A stretch of DNA of 45,135 bases. It comes from Desulfatiglandales bacterium. GTDB lineage: Bacteria > Desulfobacterota > DSM-4660 > Desulfatiglandales > HGW-15. Location of the stretch: assembly GCA_030145585.1 (NCBI GenBank), contig JAQYVK010000604.1, positions 1 to 45,135 on the forward strand, read 5' to 3'. Made by a program: the position numbers and the translations under genes. How positions within the stretch are numbered: position 1 is the first letter of the stretch; each line of letters begins with the position of its first letter. Positions 29,833 through 40,420 of this stretch are shown piece after piece. Below the pieces are notes generated by a model. That model saw only the letters and a list, made by a program, of their open reading frames with translations. It ran no database searches and was not told where the DNA came from.

Positions 29833-31038
29833 ATGAGAATTATCCTTTTTGCTGGAAAGGGAGGTGTCGGAAAAACGAGCATAGCGGCCGCCACAGGCAT
29901 AAAAGCGGCCGAAATGGGGAAGAAGACCGTCATCATGTCCCTGGATATTGCGCACAGCCTTTCCGACATTTTCGACCTGGAAAGGGGTTTGTTGGATAAA
30001 AACAAAGGGCGGCCGATCAAAATCAGCGAGAACCTGTGGATACAGGAACTGGATGTTCAAGAAGAGATAGAAAAAAACTGGGGCGGTATCCATAAATATA
30101 TTTCTACGCTACTCAATACCACGGGTCTGGATGAAATCCTGGCGGAAGAACTGGCCATTTTGCCCGGCATGGAAGAGGTCAGCCTGCTGCTCTATATTAA
30201 CCGTTACGTCCAGCAAAAAAAGTTTGATGTGATGATCCTCGACTGTGCACCCACGGGTGAATCCCTAAGGTTTATCAGTATTCCGACCACGCTCGAATGG
30301 TACATTTCGAAAGTCTTTAAAATGGAAAGGGCCCTTGCCAAATATGTTGGACCCGTGGCGAAGAGGCTGTATGACGTTCCGATTCCGGGTGATGACTATT
30401 TTGAGGCCATTTCAATTTTGTTTGAACGGTTGAAAGGGGTGGATCAAATCTTGGCGGATCCCGACATTACCACAGTTCGTCTTGTCACCAATCCGGAAAA
30501 GATTGTCTTAAAAGAGACCCAAAGGGCCCTGATGTATTTCTGTCTCTACAAGATGAACATAGATGGCATCATTATCAATCGTATTCTTCCGGAGGACATA
30601 AAGGACAACTATTTCAAAGGCTGGAGGGAAAGCCAAAAACATTACCTGGAGAAGGCAGAAGAATACTTTCGCCCCATCCCCATTTTTTACGTGAAACTCT
30701 TTCAAAACGAAATCCTGGGTTATGGCTCCCTTCAAAAATTGGCCGAACAAATCTATGAGGGCAAAGACCCCCTTGAACGGTTTTTTAAAGGGGAGCCCTA
30801 TCAACTGATCAAAGAGAATGGGGAGTACCGACTGATCATGAAACTTCCCTTCCTCGCGAAGGGGGATGTGGAACTCAATAAACTCTCAGACGAATTGATT
30901 ATTCGAATAGGTGGTTTTAAGAGGAGCGTGTTACTACCAAGACATGTGGCGTCCTCTAAATCGGTAAAAGCCAAATTGGAGGGTCAACATTTATCGATTT
31001 ATTTTAAAGGAGATGATCATGCCCAGAAAAATGAATGA
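29833..31038 (+). CDS. ArsA/Get3-like ATPase with C-terminal alpha-crystallin (ArsA_HSP20)-like domain
   Basis: FAGKGGVGKTSIAAATGIKAAEMGKKTVIMSLDIAHSLSD; C-terminal GEYRLIMKLPFLAKGDVELNKLSDELIIRIGGFKRSVLLP. Confidence 0.88.
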   Translation: MRIILFAGKGGVGKTSIAAATGIKAAEMGKKTVIMSLDIAHSLSDIFDLERGLLDKNKGRPIKISENLWIQELDVQEEIEKNWGGIHKYISTLLNTTGLDEILAEELAILPGMEEVSLLLYINRYVQQKKFDVMILDCAPTGESLRFISIPTTLEWYISKVFKMERALAKYVGPVAKRLYDVPIPGDDYFEAISILFERLKGVDQILADPDITTVRLVTNPEKIVLKETQRALMYFCLYKMNIDGIIINRILPEDIKDNYFKGWRESQKHYLEKAEEYFRPIPIFYVKLFQNEILGYGSLQKLAEQIYEGKDPLERFFKGEPYQLIKENGEYRLIMKLPFLAKGDVELNKLSDELIIRIGGFKRSVLLPRHVASSKSVKAKLEGQHLSIYFKGDDHAQKNE

Positions 31039-32656: not shown

Positions 32657-34462
32657 ATGGATGAAATAGAGAACATACAAATTGATTCACTGGGAGACTG
32701 GAAGAGGACCCATGACTGTGGCAGTCTGAGGGCCGAAGACGTGGGCCAAGAAGCCTTGTTGATGGGTTGGGTAAACAGTCGGAGGGACCTGGGCAATCTG
32801 ATTTTCATCGATCTTCGGAACAGGGGAGGCATCACCCAGATTGTATTTGATCCCCAGTTGGAGGAGGAAAGCCACAACAGGGCCCATATTTTGAGAAATG
32901 AGTGGGTCCTCGCCGTCAAGGGCAAGGTGACGCCGAGGCTTGAGGGTCAGGAAAATCAAGACCTGCCGACCGGAGCTATTGAGTTAAAGGTCACCCAACT
33001 CAAAATACTGAACAGGACCGAGGTCCCCCCCTTTCAAGTGGATGGGATGGTGGATGCATCGGAGACGCTGAGGCTCAAGTATCGATATCTGGAACTGAGA
33101 AGGCAGAAGATCTTCAAGAACTTTCAAAAGAGACATCATATCACCTCTTGTATCAGGGAATATCTAAACGAAAAGGGTTTTATAGAAGTGGAAACGCCTT
33201 TTCTGACCAAGAGCACGCCGGAAGGGGCTCGCGATTACCTGGTCCCGAGCAGGGTCAACAAGGGTCAGTTTTACGCACTGCCCCAGTCGCCCCAACTCTT
33301 TAAACAGCTCCTCATGATCGGCGGATTCGAACGGTATTACCAGGTGGTCCGATGCTTTCGAGATGAGGATCTCAGGGCAGACCGTCAACCGGAATTCACC
33401 CAGGTGGACATGGAACTGGCCTTTACGAATGAGGAAGAGGTGATGGAAATCTGTGAAGGCATGATGGCAACACTCTTCAGTAAGGTCATGGGGCGGGCAT
33501 TGTCCGAACCCATCCCGCGTCTGCCCTATCAGGAGGTGATGGACCGTTTCGGCACGGATAGACCGGACCTTCGATTCGGGATGGAACTGAAAGAGATTAC
33601 CGAGTTCCTCAAAGAGTCGGAATTTAAGAGCTTTCGCCGGGTCGTGGAAGAGGGCGGGGTCGTCAAGGCCATCAACGTGGATAAGGGCGCCACCAGCTTC
33701 TCAAGAAAGGGGCTGGATGAATTGACCCGTTTGGTGATTGATTGGGGAGGTAAGGGCCTTGCCTGGATCAAAGTAACTGAGGATGGGTGGCAGTCGTCCT
33801 TAAGTAAATTTTTCAGTGACGAAGAAAAGGAAGCCATCAATAAGCAACTAGATGGATCCCCGGGAGATTTGTATCTCATCGTGGCGGATCAGTCGCCGGT
33901 TGCCAATGAGGCCCTTGGAATGCTCAGGGGCGAGGTCGCCAGGAGATTGAACCGGATTAAGGAAGGGGATTTTGCCTTCGTTTGGGTCAACCGGTTCCCG
34001 CTGCTGGCCTATAACGAGACGGAGGGAAGATTGGAGGCCGTTCATCACCCTTTTACGGCCCCACTTGAAGAAGACCTTTCCCTGCTACAGGATCAACCGG
34101 AGAAGGTTCGGGCAAGGTCCTATGATCTTGTGTTGAACGGCACGGAGATCGGTGGGGGAAGCGTGAGGATCCATCAAATTTCCATGCAGCAAGAAATGTT
34201 TAAAATTTTAGGGATTCCCCAGAAAGAAGCGGAGCGAAAATTCGGTTTTTTGTTGGAAGCCTTAAAATATGGCGCTCCCCCACATGGGGGGATCGCTTTC
34301 GGCCTGGATCGTCTTGTGGCGATCCTGACAGGGGTCGATTCCATTAGAGAAATCATAGCCTTCCCGAAGACCCAGCGAGCGACCTGCCCCCTCACAGATG
34401 CCCCCTCTGGGGTGGGTGAGGATCAACTCGAAGAGCTCGGCCTCCGAACCCGTCAGGAATAG
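32657..34462 (+). CDS. aspS: Aspartyl-tRNA synthetase
   Basis: GWVNSRRDLGNLIFIDLRNRGGITQIV; FRDEDLRADRQPEFTQVDMELAF; GIAFGLDRLVAILTG. Confidence 0.96.
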   Translation: MDEIENIQIDSLGDWKRTHDCGSLRAEDVGQEALLMGWVNSRRDLGNLIFIDLRNRGGITQIVFDPQLEEESHNRAHILRNEWVLAVKGKVTPRLEGQENQDLPTGAIELKVTQLKILNRTEVPPFQVDGMVDASETLRLKYRYLELRRQKIFKNFQKRHHITSCIREYLNEKGFIEVETPFLTKSTPEGARDYLVPSRVNKGQFYALPQSPQLFKQLLMIGGFERYYQVVRCFRDEDLRADRQPEFTQVDMELAFTNEEEVMEICEGMMATLFSKVMGRALSEPIPRLPYQEVMDRFGTDRPDLRFGMELKEITEFLKESEFKSFRRVVEEGGVVKAINVDKGATSFSRKGLDELTRLVIDWGGKGLAWIKVTEDGWQSSLSKFFSDEEKEAINKQLDGSPGDLYLIVADQSPVANEALGMLRGEVARRLNRIKEGDFAFVWVNRFPLLAYNETEGRLEAVHHPFTAPLEEDLSLLQDQPEKVRARSYDLVLNGTEIGGGSVRIHQISMQQEMFKILGIPQKEAERKFGFLLEALKYGAPPHGGIAFGLDRLVAILTGVDSIREIIAFPKTQRATCPLTDAPSGVGEDQLEELGLRTRQE

Positions 34463-34574
34463 AAGCTTTTTTCAAGCACCAGAGCCAATTGGGGCGCCCT
34501 CCAAAAAGGATGAACCTACTTTTACTCTCCATTGCCTAAATGCATCTACTATCCCCCTCCCTTGTAGTGAAAGT

Positions 34575-34933
34575 AAAAGGGGGTCAAATCTTTAAACTTC
34601 AGAAATATATTGATTAGTTTAATTTGGCTATATGGCTAGACCCCTAAGAATTCAATATCCTGGAGCTTATTACCACGTTATATGCAGAGGTAATGAGCAA
34701 AAGAAGATCTTCTGTTTGGATAAGGATTCATCCAGAAGAGAGCAACCAGCCCTGAAAGAATTAAGCAAAGTATTTGAACCGAAAGAATTGATTGAGCAAT
34801 TTATTCAAATAACAGGAGAAAGAAGGGAAGATATCTGTCGGCGCGGCAAAAACTCAACAGAGAGGGCTATGTTGATGGATTTGGCAAGATAATTAAGAAG
34901 TTGAATCATTTGTCAAGTTTAAAGACCCCTTTT
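34575..34933 (+). mobile_element. RAYT (REP-associated tyrosine transposase) relic with flanking inverted repeats
   Basis: AAAAGGGGGTCAAATCTTTAAACTTCAGAA (34575-34604) versus TTGTCAAGTTTAAAGACCCCTTTT (34910-34933) around the truncated ORF. Confidence 0.65.
34632..34892 (+). pseudogene. Internally deleted RAYT/Y1-type transposase ORF
   Basis: N-terminal MARPLRIQYPGAYYHVICRGNEQKKIF joined directly to a C-terminal segment; HUH and catalytic Tyr regions absent. Confidence 0.8.
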
Positions 34934-34987
34934 CACAAAATTTTTGCGTATTCGGATTTTGAATTTGTTTCGGATTTCCGGACTTGG

Positions 34988-36487
34988 TTAGGTATAATTG
35001 ACAACCGCCGATTTTTTCTGCCCTTCTACCTCGACTGTTATCGACAATCTCTGTGCCATATCTATTGAGAACATTACCTCAATATCGACTTCACCAGCAC
35101 GTTTCGGAGCCAGATTATTGATGGGTATTTTTCCAATAAGAGAATGAGTCTTTTTTGAAATTTTTTTACCTGATCCCTGATAGACTCCTATGTCCAGTTT
35201 TTTAACATTATCCTTGGCAGTGGTGAACACTTGTTTGGCAGTGCAAGGCGCTTGGCGATTTGCAGGAATAAGCTCTTTGAAACGGTTCCCTGATGTTTTG
35301 AGTCCCAGGGCATGACAAGTTCGGGTTCGAATAACAATTTTTTTGTCAAAAAAATCGGTATTGTCGAGATAGGCGGCATACATTGCCGCACCTTCGGCGA
35401 TACTTGTGGATGGGTTAATATTACTCCATGTTTTTTCAGCGCCCAGGATATCATCCAGCAGGTTTTTTATGCATGGTATATGGCTTGAGCCACCAACTCG
35501 AATAACGCGATCAATATCAGAAGGGTTTAATTTGGAACTGGCCCAAAGACTATCTATAATTTTTGAAATCTTATCGAAATAGTCTTTTATGGATTTTTCG
35601 AATTCTTCACGGCTAATCGAAACTTCAATATGTTTATCAGGGAGTATAAACGGAACAGCAACATAGTAATCATTAGAGGCACTCAATGCGATCTTAGCCA
35701 ATGTTGACTGTTCTAGCAGGTTCTTTTGCGCCTTATTGAACAGTTTTGGTTCAATACCATCTAAGGAAACACCACTTTTTTCCAAAATAACATCCGCAAG
35801 ACATCTATCGAAGTCCATTCCACCCAGCCTGTCATCACCACTGCTGGCGAGGACCTCGAAAAATATTGTATCGCTTGTATGCTTAAGTTGAAACAATGTA
35901 AGATCAAAGGTGCCGCCCCCAAGATCAAAGACGAGAATTTTCTGGCTAAACTCTTTGTCAAAATGGTCCTCGCAAATTTGCAAGGCATAGGAAAGAGAAG
36001 CGGCAATTGGCTCTTGAATAATTCCAATACAATTAATATCTGTCATTTCAGCTGCCTTGCGTGTATTGTCCATCTGGTGCGCTTTGAAATAGCATGGAAC
36101 AGTGACAACACTGCCACGGCTGCTGAAAGTACCCGTCGGATATTTCATCTTGGCATCTTCATATATCTTTTCCAAAATCAAAGAAGAGAGTGTAATAGGA
36201 GTAAATTCTTTACCTCCAAGCATGACTTTCTGATTGCCATCATCCATAAGCCGTTTGACACCGACTATCATATTTTCCGGTATCATAAGTCCTTTGGTAT
36301 ATGCTATATGACCAACCAGAATTTCATCATTTTCCGGGTTGTAATAGACAACCGATTGAGTTATATCTTGACCCGCCCTGTTTTGAATGATTTGAGGTCC
36401 TTTCCTGTCCACCCATCTAGCTAATGCACTGAAGGTTGTACCTAAATCAAAGCCTAATACTGGATTAGTTTCGTTATCAATAGCCAT
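34988..36487 (-). CDS. Divergent Hsp70 family protein (Hsp70-A), no C-terminal lid
   Basis: VLGFDLGTTFSALARW, LVFDLGGGTFDLTLFQ, RVIRVGGSSHIPCIKNLL; ends after a beta-SBD-like region. Confidence 0.9.
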   Translation of the reverse strand: MAIDNETNPVLGFDLGTTFSALARWVDRKGPQIIQNRAGQDITQSVVYYNPENDEILVGHIAYTKGLMIPENMIVGVKRLMDDGNQKVMLGGKEFTPITLSSLILEKIYEDAKMKYPTGTFSSRGSVVTVPCYFKAHQMDNTRKAAEMTDINCIGIIQEPIAASLSYALQICEDHFDKEFSQKILVFDLGGGTFDLTLFQLKHTSDTIFFEVLASSGDDRLGGMDFDRCLADVILEKSGVSLDGIEPKLFNKAQKNLLEQSTLAKIALSASNDYYVAVPFILPDKHIEVSISREEFEKSIKDYFDKISKIIDSLWASSKLNPSDIDRVIRVGGSSHIPCIKNLLDDILGAEKTWSNINPSTSIAEGAAMYAAYLDNTDFFDKKIVIRTRTCHALGLKTSGNRFKELIPANRQAPCTAKQVFTTAKDNVKKLDIGVYQGSGKKISKKTHSLIGKIPINNLAPKRAGEVDIEVMFSIDMAQRLSITVEVEGQKKSAVVNYT

Positions 36488-36588
36488 CTAAAATCTCCTA
36501 ACGAGAAAATCAACGCAATTATATGCGCTTTGATTCTTTTTTTCTTCAAACCCATTATTCCGTTACCACGGAAGGCGTTACTTCACTA

Positions 36589-37770
36589 TTAATCATTATT
36601 CTTAATAACAACCACACGTGCAACGCGAAGCGTCTGCCGGTTTCCATTGTGAGCAACGTACTCATACCCATCCCTGCTGATCTCTTTAATTTGTTCGTTC
36701 TCCATCACAGGATCAGCCTCAACTGAAGAAGGTTCATGACGCTCAAAATCGATCATCATACCAGGCTCTATGTCCATCCGGTAAACACCTAGATCATTCA
36801 GCATGGTTAAAATGGTGCTGCTAAGTGTGAAATAGGTATTAAACCACTCACTTAATTTTGATTCTGATTCCTGATATTGCTCCATTAATTCATCTATCAG
36901 AATCGAAGTGGGATTCTTTCCATCGATAATACCATCAAGAATAGGGAGAACCTGTTTTCCAATGAAATCAAGCCATGTCTTTTGCCGTTTTTCAGCGAGG
37001 TCACCAGCTTTGGACACAAGTTTGTAGTTTGACCTTCTAATAATGTCCAGATTCTTGTTTATCTTTTTTTGTGCTGAATTCTCATTCATTTCACCTTCCA
37101 TAAGTTTCATCCACTCATCTTCCTCAAGCTCCTTTAAATTGTCAGCTAATTCGATTTCCTCTACCAGGCTTTTCAGTCGATCATCCTGATTAACCAAGCG
37201 TTGTAGCATCCGACCAATAATGTTGAGTCCCTGCTGGCTGCTTTCCAGCGCTTTTTTAAGTTCCTTTGACAGACTTTCCAGGATCTCATTGCTGTTTGCT
37301 ATAACGTCATCAGTAGCGTCTGCTGCCTCTTTGATCATGAGTTTCAGTCTTTTCCCACGCTCAAGCCAAAACTCGGCATTCTTTAGACACAGCTTAATAC
37401 TCTTTTCGTCATCTTTAATACTTTCCTGTTCTTCAGCCTTTGCCTGAGCGATCAAACCCTGGATATCTAAGACAGGTTCTTTTGAGACTATCTCTTTATC
37501 GGCCTTCACCGGAGAGGGTTGTGATTCTATCTGTTTCAGGTGCGAGCAAATTTCATCAAATTTTGCTTCAAGCTCCTTAAACCGTTCTTCAAGTTTATTA
37601 ATCCTGTCATCCCGATTTTCCAATTCTGCCTTAAGGCCTTCGATCTTTAAAGAAACCTTTTGCAATGGCTCCATTACAAAAGCTTGAAAGGCCTTGGTTA
37701 CTTCTTCGGCTTTCTCATCGTCAGGGAGGCTCTGATTATCTTCGGAAATATTGTTTTTTGTGGCGCTCAT
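36589..37770 (-). CDS. Coiled-coil protein with GrpE-like C-terminal domain
   Basis: Long N-terminal heptads; C-terminal QVLPILDGI...LGVYRMDIEPGMMIDFERHEPS...GYEYVAHNGNRQTLRVARVVVIKN parallels the GrpE head region. Confidence 0.7.
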   Translation of the reverse strand: MSATKNNISEDNQSLPDDEKAEEVTKAFQAFVMEPLQKVSLKIEGLKAELENRDDRINKLEERFKELEAKFDEICSHLKQIESQPSPVKADKEIVSKEPVLDIQGLIAQAKAEEQESIKDDEKSIKLCLKNAEFWLERGKRLKLMIKEAADATDDVIANSNEILESLSKELKKALESSQQGLNIIGRMLQRLVNQDDRLKSLVEEIELADNLKELEEDEWMKLMEGEMNENSAQKKINKNLDIIRRSNYKLVSKAGDLAEKRQKTWLDFIGKQVLPILDGIIDGKNPTSILIDELMEQYQESESKLSEWFNTYFTLSSTILTMLNDLGVYRMDIEPGMMIDFERHEPSSVEADPVMENEQIKEISRDGYEYVAHNGNRQTLRVARVVVIKNND

Positions 37771-38045
37771 AGCAGTTAATGTCCCCTTGATTGTGAAACA
37801 AATTTATTGGGACCATTTTGTATGGTTTTGAATTTCAATATTAATTAAACATCTCGGAAATTGTACAATCAAGAGCGCAAAGCTTCACTTCGTGTCCAGT
37901 ATTCCAACATTCTAAAGTTGGGATCCCGCCCCGGAGGGGCGGGAGGCTGAGCGGAGCAAAGCGAGCGCGAAGAATTGTGAGCGAAGCGAACGGTGTTCAA
38001 CAAATCCTGTTTTGCCGTAAGATTCCGTTATTCTTCGCGAACCGG

Positions 38046-39668
38046 TTACCGGCTTTTGTTATCTGGTGTAATCCTCTGTTGTCTATCAATGATGTTGGAC
38101 TCGCGGATTTCAAGCTCATCTGATGAACTGGAACTGCTTGCCTTTACTTTCAATAGATTTTGGCTGTCGATCTCAAATTCAACATCAATATTCTCTTCAC
38201 CACGTGGTTTTGGCGGGATCCCCTTAAGAAAGAATTCACCTATGCACTTAGCGCTATCAGATGATACATATTCAACATCTTCAGAGGACTGAAACACTAT
38301 AATAGCCAACTCTGTGATATTGTCTTCCGGCGTTGTATACTCTTTACTGACGGTAACGGGGCCCTCCGCCGGTATCTCCGTATCCTTAGGTATCAGACAG
38401 TTAAATTTGCCTCCAACAACTTCGATACCCAGGTTGTGAGTGACAATATTATCGATGTCGATCACAAATTCAGGAGTGTCTTCTTCAGGACGTTCCAATT
38501 CAGGATCCGGCAACATCATAGTAGCCCCGAGTATGGCGGCGCCTCGAGCTATTGCAGTATCCGGATCTGTATCAGAATAAGGTTCTTTTCCGAACATTTC
38601 ATGCAACATTTCTTTTACCAATGGGATCTTACTGGAACCGCCGACAAGGATGATCCTATCAATATCTTCAATCTCAAATTTTGCAGCACTTAAAGCCTTT
38701 TCAACTGAATCCTTGGTTTGAAGTATCAGGTCATGGATTTCTTCATTGAATTGTTCCCGGGTGATCTCAAAATTATCTATATGGTGAGGCTGCCCGGTCT
38801 CGTCATGGATGAAGTTAGGGATATCGATTGAGGTCGTGGTTGCTTCGGAGAGTTCATGTTTTGCAGCAATTACTGCTTCAAGCAGTTTTTGTTGAGCTTC
38901 TCTGGCTTCTTTAGTGATTCCCTGGTCCTTATCTGGATCATAAATATCGATATTGGATGCCTTGGCAAACTCGCCGGCCACTCTTTTCATAATCCTTTGG
39001 TCAAAATCATCTCCGCCCAGCTTTTGAATGCCTTCCTTTGCAAGAACTTTAAACTGTTTGTTGGCATTTCCTGTGGAGTCGACTTCAAGGATAGAAACAT
39101 CAAATGTACCGCCACCAAGATCATAGACAAGAACTGTCTGAACCCGCTCTTTTTCGAGAGCGTATGCATACGCAGCAGCTATAGGCTCTTCTAACAGGGT
39201 TAACATCTCAAGATTAGCAAGTTCTCCAGCCATTTGAGTTGCTTTCTTTTGTGCATCATTGAAATTAGCGGGTACACAAATAACAGCATACTTCGGGGTG
39301 CCGCCGAGATCGACCGTTTCATTTTGTAGAATACCGTCGATCAATTTCGAAAGAATTTCAGCGGAAACCTCCACTGGTGTAAAGACCTTCCCTGGAATCT
39401 CTTCAAACTCCTTTTCCCAGTCTGTCGCCATATGCCGCTTTATCGACGAGACTGTGCTTTCTGGCGCAATTAAATTGCGAGACTTTGCCTGGCTGCCAAC
39501 GAGAATTTCGCCGTCTTTTAGGACAGACATGACAGACGGCATAGTCTTGGTGCCATTAATATTAATGATTTCAGGCTCTCCCGTTTTATAGATCCCGGCT
39601 GCACAATTGGTTGTCCCAAGATCGATTCCTAAAACATAGCTGCTGGATTTTTCAACTAATGCGGTCAT
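38046..39668 (-). CDS. DnaK-like Hsp70 family protein (Hsp70-B), no C-terminal lid
   Basis: VLGIDLGTTNCAAGIY, VYDLGGGTFDVSILE, RIILVGGSSKIPLVKEML; Ser-rich tail after beta-SBD. Confidence 0.92.
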   Translation of the reverse strand: MTALVEKSSSYVLGIDLGTTNCAAGIYKTGEPEIININGTKTMPSVMSVLKDGEILVGSQAKSRNLIAPESTVSSIKRHMATDWEKEFEEIPGKVFTPVEVSAEILSKLIDGILQNETVDLGGTPKYAVICVPANFNDAQKKATQMAGELANLEMLTLLEEPIAAAYAYALEKERVQTVLVYDLGGGTFDVSILEVDSTGNANKQFKVLAKEGIQKLGGDDFDQRIMKRVAGEFAKASNIDIYDPDKDQGITKEAREAQQKLLEAVIAAKHELSEATTTSIDIPNFIHDETGQPHHIDNFEITREQFNEEIHDLILQTKDSVEKALSAAKFEIEDIDRIILVGGSSKIPLVKEMLHEMFGKEPYSDTDPDTAIARGAAILGATMMLPDPELERPEEDTPEFVIDIDNIVTHNLGIEVVGGKFNCLIPKDTEIPAEGPVTVSKEYTTPEDNITELAIIVFQSSEDVEYVSSDSAKCIGEFFLKGIPPKPRGEENIDVEFEIDSQNLLKVKASSSSSSDELEIRESNIIDRQQRITPDNKSR

Positions 39669-40233
39669 TTTGTTCCTCCGTTTAATTCGTTCATTATATT
39701 TTGATTTCCCTTTAAAAATTCTTAAGTGTGCTTTTTATTTGTCTGCGAACATCGTGCCAAACTGTTAGCATCTGGAAATTGCATTAGATATCAAATAGAT
39801 ATGAAGATGACTCCAAATTTCCGGTCTGAAACGTGTTTATAAATTGACAATTCAATCAAAAAAGTGGCCAGGCAGACACATATTGACCATTGGGAGCGTA
39901 TCTGCTCACTTACGCATTGACAAAAATGGTCCGGACGTTCGTGCAGAACATGCATATATGAAAAGATAAGAAGTGGCTATTTCAAAGCGGATGAATCGAG
40001 AATGGTGACTTGTGTATCGGTTTCAACTGCAGCACAACATATTGAAGTGCCCATTAATGCAAACAATAATTATCCGAACAACCAAGCAGGTTTTGTTGTT
40101 AAGATTAATTTTTTTACGCCGGGGAACTTACGTCCTTAGGCAATTAAATAACTCAGCCAGAAGAGATAATTGTAAAATAGAAGCCTGTTCAAATGATAGA
40201 ATAGTTTGTGAATTACTAAAGGATTGTCCCCCA

Positions 40234-40420
40234 TTTCACTAATCCGAAGATAATCAGAACCCCCTTCTCACAAGCCCATGTGATGCGCCCAGACGGTGGC
40301 TTGACGCCACAGGGCTTCGCACCCTTCAGGAATAGCAGCTCTTTTCCCGACCCAAAGCCAACTTGGACACGCTCCTTAAAAACGGATGAACCTCCAATTA
40401 CTCTCCGTTGCCAGAATGCG
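40234..40420 (+). repeat. Diverged duplicate of the aspS 3' end and downstream sequence
   Basis: In-frame NPLLTSPCDAPRRWLDATGLRTLQE* versus AspS CPLTDAPSGVGEDQLEELGLRTRQE*; downstream GGATGAACCT...TTACTCTCC.TTGCC..AATGC shared with 34381-34545. Confidence 0.75.

Follow-up and report, generated by a model that had tools for sequence, protein, structure and literature searches.

The question raised by this locus is what kind of chaperone system is encoded by three adjacent minus-strand genes, two of which specify Hsp70s without a lid, while the third, lying between them, specifies a coiled-coil protein. In the window, i.e., the whole stretch of 45,135 nt analyzed here, the positions and the order of these genes given by the first-pass annotation (Hsp70, coiled-coil protein, Hsp70) were reproduced exactly: the first gene of the trio encodes Hsp70-A (38046..39668, minus strand, 540 aa), the second the middle protein, M (36589..37770, minus strand, 393 aa), and the third Hsp70-B (34988..36487, minus strand, 499 aa). 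The two Hsp70s, the middle protein and the missing lids as they were first described are thus confirmed. The explanation that we favor, with moderate confidence, is that the trio constitutes a horizontally acquired, dedicated, J-independent Hsp70 pair organized by an elongated GrpE-like protein. The unit gives the impression of a chaperone system in its own right, not of spare copies of the standard one.

Both Hsp70s consist of a nucleotide-binding domain (NBD) followed by the beta part of the substrate-binding domain (SBD-beta). The Pfam HSP70 profile matches Hsp70-A with an E value of 3.8e-111 over profile positions 1-497 of 599, and Hsp70-B with an E value of 2.7e-87, the match ending at position 491 of 599. 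In the alignment with E. coli DnaK, 18 residues of Hsp70-A and 2 of Hsp70-B extend past DnaK position 502, as compared with 137 in DnaK itself, and in the test for membership of the DnaK type, SBD-beta was found to be present and the alpha-helical lid absent in both proteins. The extent of the Pfam matches and the DnaK alignment therefore agree with the earlier statement that both proteins end after the beta substrate-binding region. The same holds true in a second genome (L014, described below), where the C-terminal 348 aa of Hsp70-A are conserved, Hsp70-B is 89.8% identical, and both proteins have the same lidless C-termini. Since both C-termini recur in this second genome, neither a frameshift nor an assembly artefact accounts for the missing lid. 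The Ser-rich tail previously assigned to "Hsp70-B" does exist, in the form of the Ser-rich acidic tail KASSSSSSDELEIRES, and its owner is the 540-aa protein (38046-39668) named Hsp70-A here, the earlier A/B labels having been ambiguous.

The nucleotide-binding motifs reported in both Hsp70s are accompanied by the full catalytic set: the ATPase residues D8, T11, T12, K70, E171, D194, G198, T199, and D201 are present in Hsp70-A and Hsp70-B alike. The residues used for contacts with partner proteins present a different picture. J-proteins are considered to be obligate partners for Hsp70s (PMC7289447). D35 in the HPD motif of DnaJ bonds R167 and Q378 of DnaK (PMC8215388), and changing R167 or its partners makes stimulation by the J-protein (DnaJ) ineffective (PMC7289447). 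In the DnaK alignment, R167, N170, and Q378 are replaced by T, E, and L in Hsp70-A and by G, Q, and Y in Hsp70-B. All three residues are kept in E. coli DnaK, HscA, and HscC, in the host genome's own DnaK, and in six lid-bearing Hsp70s encoded next to a GrpE gene (L050, L051, L054, L055, L057, and L066). The J-domain contact set (R167 and Q378, along with N170 and the linker residue D393) is therefore lost in both proteins of the trio, except possibly for D393 in Hsp70-A, the retention of which depends on the placement of an alignment gap. These losses agree with the missing J-domain gene in the window. DnaK D481 was also considered as a J-contact marker and was rejected because it varies in the housekeeping DnaKs of the same group as well.

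The cross-cleft salt bridges of DnaK, K55-E267 and R56-E264, are both missing in Hsp70-A and Hsp70-B. HscA, which is without cleft salt bridges, shows fast ADP release and works without GrpE (PMC8215388), and fast intrinsic nucleotide release is therefore predicted in the case of Hsp70-A and Hsp70-B. The GrpE-signature loop (approximately DnaK 290-295) is full length in Hsp70-A only and is shortened in Hsp70-B, which lends some support to the asymmetry of the two Hsp70s proposed in the first-pass annotation.

The middle protein consists of a coiled coil (residues ~25-99), a helical middle part and a GrpE-like C-terminal part (~270-392). It is 85% identical to its counterpart in L014, the identity between the two genomes amounting to 91-93% in the C-terminal half and 79-82% in the N-terminal half. 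The long coiled coil first read from the sequence stands: the heptad pattern at residues ~25-99 is strong, with a score of 0.95 versus a maximum of 0.85 in 300 shuffles, and a second, weaker heptad pattern occurs at ~146-209. The parallel drawn between the C-terminus of M and the GrpE beta-domain is probable in the light of the HMM, shuffling, and hhalign results, although it lies below the Pfam cut-off: the Pfam GrpE profile (positions 29-165) matches residues 236-390 of M with an E value of 3.3e-4 and a score of 20.8 bits, versus 25.8 bits required by the curated cut-off of PF01025. Comparisons between M and 22 GrpEs using hhalign gave probabilities of 77-85% and pairwise E values of 2e-5 to 6e-6. 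An HMM built from 32 canonical GrpEs alone found no match in M, and an HMM including divergent Hsp70-linked GrpEs aligned the C-terminus of M with a score of 10.2 bits, as compared with 5.9 bits at most when the C-terminal segment was shuffled 2000 times. The GrpE beta-domain signature (FDP..HEA and GY...LRPA.V.V) is present in a diverged form (DFERHEP and GYEY...LRVARVVV). The AlphaFold models, which had pLDDT values of 45 in the case of M alone and 41 when its last 169 residues were modeled together with one homologue, were too poor for the GrpE fold (a dimeric helical stalk, a four-helix bundle and beta heads) to be judged, and a phmmer search of M against the PDB sequences gave chance-level matches only. 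Based on these comparisons, M is probably derived from GrpE, the match being weak and sub-threshold but reproducible.

M might alternatively be a coiled-coil adaptor that only attaches both Hsp70s to a client or a site, without being an exchange factor at all, in which case the GrpE-like strand pattern would have decayed or arisen by chance. The sub-threshold Pfam score is in line with this possibility, as are the long N-terminal extension, which is atypical of GrpE, and the shortened GrpE-signature loop of Hsp70-B; moreover, Hsp70-A and Hsp70-B have no cleft salt bridges, so that help with exchange may be unneeded. We nevertheless consider an adaptor of this kind unlikely, since the GrpE profile and hhalign matches reach the very C-terminus of M, where the pattern GY...LRxAxVxV is found, the M gene is located between two Hsp70 genes, and Hsp70-A keeps the GrpE loop.

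If the trio is, as we favor, a dedicated Hsp70 pair organized by a GrpE-like protein, M would dimerize via its own coiled coil, and its C-terminal beta part would engage Hsp70-A in the manner of GrpE binding to DnaK. The long helices at the N-terminus of M would reach the substrate domains, partly substituting for the missing lids, and would also keep Hsp70-B nearby. GrpE helices have been found to contact the SBD of DnaK in the M. tuberculosis complex, and the tails of E. coli GrpE to bind the SBD groove (PMC10803776, PMC12915176). Since the lid, the J-trigger and the cleft salt bridges are all missing, Hsp70-A and Hsp70-B would be expected to cycle quickly, with their substrates in fast exchange. 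Instead of performing general refolding, the module would therefore be expected to hold, or to remodel, just a few clients, which M would recruit. The exchange-factor step would be the least certain part of this mechanism, since Hsp70-A and Hsp70-B may not need an exchange factor; the lack of the cleft salt bridges, which slow ADP release in DnaK, likewise cuts against a pure exchange-factor role for M. A bolder version of the mechanism, which we put forward only tentatively and think rather improbable, is that of a J-protein-independent, asymmetric Hsp70 heteropair carried as mobile cargo, in which a single extended GrpE-like protein would serve as the exchange factor, the scaffold and a trans-acting lid. 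If this were true, the heteropair would represent a third type of Hsp70 cycle, the other two being the one that uses a J-protein and an NEF and the NEF-free one of the HscA type.

The trio was apparently acquired horizontally. It is carried by an inserted segment of ~6 kb (34544..40311) located between two direct repeats having the same orientation: the left repeat (34439..34543, plus strand) comprises the last 24 bp of aspS and 81 bp downstream, and the right one (40312..40419, plus strand) is a displaced aspS-like tail located ahead of the next housekeeping-type gene and reading GLRTLQE-stop, as compared with GLRTRQE-stop in aspS. The repeats are 108 bp long and imperfect (82/108 identical positions, E 3e-18, blastn). 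The GC content of the insert is 41.1%, versus 47.8% in the rest of the window. In seven relatives belonging to the same family, the distance from aspS to the next gene is 97-408 bp and the site is empty, i.e., free of the trio, whereas this distance is 6019 bp in the window. The gene order after aspS in these relatives is a small Cys-rich gene followed by tlyA and dxs, and the same Cys-rich gene is found beyond the trio in the window. The repeat structure is compatible with integration at the 3' end of the gene with duplication of the tail, a route that we infer, since no integrase was recognized. The insert contains only the trio and remnants, and the flanks read as housekeeping genes. An 86-aa frame at 34632-34892, which has no Pfam match, resembles, by eye, a REP-associated transposase with an internal deletion (MARPLRIQYPGAYYHVICRGNEQKKIF...).

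A horizontally inserted unit with a very patchy distribution might also be the cargo of a mobile defense or conflict island, in which the trio would sense phages or other invaders or set the threshold of the response to them, as proposed for the GAP1-N2 conflict systems. Neighborhoods of the latter kind contain HSP70, GrpE, and a second, shortened HSP70 (Kaur et al., 2020, PMC7159879), and the trio resembles them in that two unlike Hsp70s and a GrpE occur in one neighborhood. The second Hsp70 of the GAP1-N2 systems is without the whole peptide-binding domain, and GTPases and FNIII/DnaJ or TPR proteins are present (PMC7159879), whereas the trio keeps SBD-beta in both of its Hsp70s and has no GAP1-N2 or GTPase-type genes nearby. 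Reading the ORF list brought up no GTPase, nuclease, or effector gene and no conflict gene of any other kind in or beside the insert. PADLOC gave only weak Hsp70-domain matches to PDC-M61B (27-35 bits), and M had no match in the plasmid and phage collections (tblastn), all of which makes a role in defense doubtful. Searches with Hsp70-A and Hsp70-B against plasmids and with Hsp70-B against phages (tblastn) yielded ordinary DnaK-like matches only, with ~40% identity or less.

The host assembly (4.72 Mb, 84% complete) contains a full-length housekeeping DnaK (920 bits), which is encoded on another contig, as well as a canonical GrpE encoded elsewhere (156 bits) and J-domain genes distributed over five other contigs. 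As originally stated, there is no J-domain gene within the window, the J-domain matches of the genome being all located on other contigs. The presence of these DnaK, GrpE, and J-domain genes elsewhere upholds the previous conclusion that the trio is not the housekeeping dnaK-grpE-dnaJ set, and the trio does not include the only DnaK and GrpE of the genome. Hsp70-A and Hsp70-B might still be additional DnaKs supplementing the stress machinery and using the cell's DnaJ and GrpE, given that Hsp70-A is 36-40% identical to DnaKs (tblastn) and that J-domain proteins are available in the cell. This is very improbable, however, in view of the loss of the J-contact residues in both Hsp70s. In addition, no CIRCE-like heat-shock element was found upstream of the trio, and the single sigma32-like site present there is weak (10/12 bases), with no chance estimate behind the match.

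Scanning the GTDB genomes with M yielded one relative, L014, which is a 4.1-kb contig of a Desulfobacterales MAG showing the same gene order as the window: Hsp70-A (partial), M, and Hsp70-B. The identity between the two loci is 84% in the case of Hsp70-A, 85% in that of M and ~90% in that of Hsp70-B, and the corresponding dN/dS values are 0.36, 0.41, and 0.26, with dS values of 0.17-0.25 (about 0.2), which indicates that all three genes are under purifying selection. M was present in no further genome among 396 belonging to the phylum and 86 belonging to the order, and the same was true of Hsp70-B at stringent E-values. The three genes are thus conserved as a unit in the same order, but just one other genome carrying them was found, so that the generality of the trio is thin. 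That the trio represents what is left of a decaying inserted element is scarcely credible, for although a transposase-like remnant and an intergenic insert are present within the island, the frames are intact in two genomes, the dN/dS values are all below 0.5 and the ATPase residues are intact. The spacer between the Hsp70-A and M genes (37771-38045) is 275 bp long in the window, whereas its length in L014 is about 80 bp; the additional ~190 bp, which include a GC-rich inverted repeat, are an apparent later insertion. A lipoprotein-like reading frame is present right after Hsp70-B in L014 (3939-4148), where it is cut by the end of the contig, and was not found in the window.

The trio resembles the DnaK-GrpE systems of E. 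coli and M. tuberculosis in its intact catalytic NBD, the GrpE-like beta-domain signature at the C-terminus of M and the elongated helical N-terminus of the latter. It differs from them in having two Hsp70 genes, the products of which are both without the lid, the J-contact residues and the cleft salt bridges, and M is about twice as long as E. coli GrpE (393 vs. 197 aa), with a score that lies below the cut-off for GrpE. Paralogous Hsp70s adjoining a divergent GrpE of their own have been described in Myxococcus, where MXAN_6672 (GrpE) and MxDnaK2 form a bicistronic operon (PMC11019930), and pairs composed of a divergent GrpE and a single Hsp70 are common in Desulfobacterota (L050, L051, L054-L059, and L066). 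A second GrpE-profile match, which was weak in many cases, was detected in 43 of 247 Desulfobacterota genomes, and of the 20 regions retrieved around matches of this kind, 11 contained an Hsp70. These pairs are like the trio as regards the association between a paralogous Hsp70 and its own GrpE; unlike the trio, they have a single Hsp70, and most of them keep the lid and R167/N170/Q378. In the NBD tree, Hsp70-A and Hsp70-B join none of the Hsp70s of the GrpE-Hsp70 pairs, nor any of the paralogue families sampled.

HscA and HscC are likewise specialized Hsp70s without the cleft salt bridges of DnaK, and their GrpE-signature region is shortened, as in Hsp70-B; unlike Hsp70-A and Hsp70-B, they keep lid residues, R167 and N170, and they have dedicated J-proteins. 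Hsp70-A, Hsp70-B, HscA, and HscC emerge in the NBD tree from an unresolved fork with long branches, and the NCBIfam HscA scores of Hsp70-A and Hsp70-B are far below the cut-off. An origin of the two proteins by direct duplication finds no support in the tree, which does not join Hsp70-A with Hsp70-B. Adjacent pairs of unlike Hsp70s (~604-638 aa and ~930-985 aa; L086, L087, and others) are common in the same order, and the positions of R167 and N170 are likewise occupied by T and E in them; descent from these pairs finds no support in the tree either, which places them on a separate long branch of their own.

GrpE-Hsp70 pairs are therefore already known, and what is new is that an extended GrpE-like protein is flanked by two Hsp70s that are both lidless and J-blind. 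No description of a unit of this kind was found in a keyword search of open-access full texts, an absence that is not proof. Two Hsp70s without J-contacts and lid, in which the ATPase residues and a GrpE-like partner have been kept, make it possible to test cleanly what the Hsp70 cycle can and cannot do without, and also whether a GrpE-type stalk can replace a lid. With the trio, the cargo known to travel on horizontally moving segments comes to include a chaperone unit as well.

Some other unusual chaperone loci were observed in the course of this analysis. In three other Desulfobacterota genomes (L056, L058, and L059), a recurrent unit consists of a divergent GrpE, a lid-poor Hsp70 and a protein of ~780-920 aa. 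R167 is replaced by Q in the Hsp70, and the N-terminus of the ~780-920-aa protein looks J-like by eye, with NHPTKG in place of HPD, Pfam giving Lcl_C only; a paired change of the D35-R167 contact is possible in these genomes. A different Hsp70 operon (L060 1726-7666, G026) encodes a 771-aa Hsp70, a LysM protein, a TPR protein, and a 151-aa GrpE-like protein, and this Hsp70 has a changed C-terminus and keeps only R167 among R167, N170, and Q378. Lastly, an ArsA/Get3-like ATPase is encoded at 29833-31038 in the window, the C-terminal stretch of which looks alpha-crystallin/HSP20-like by eye.
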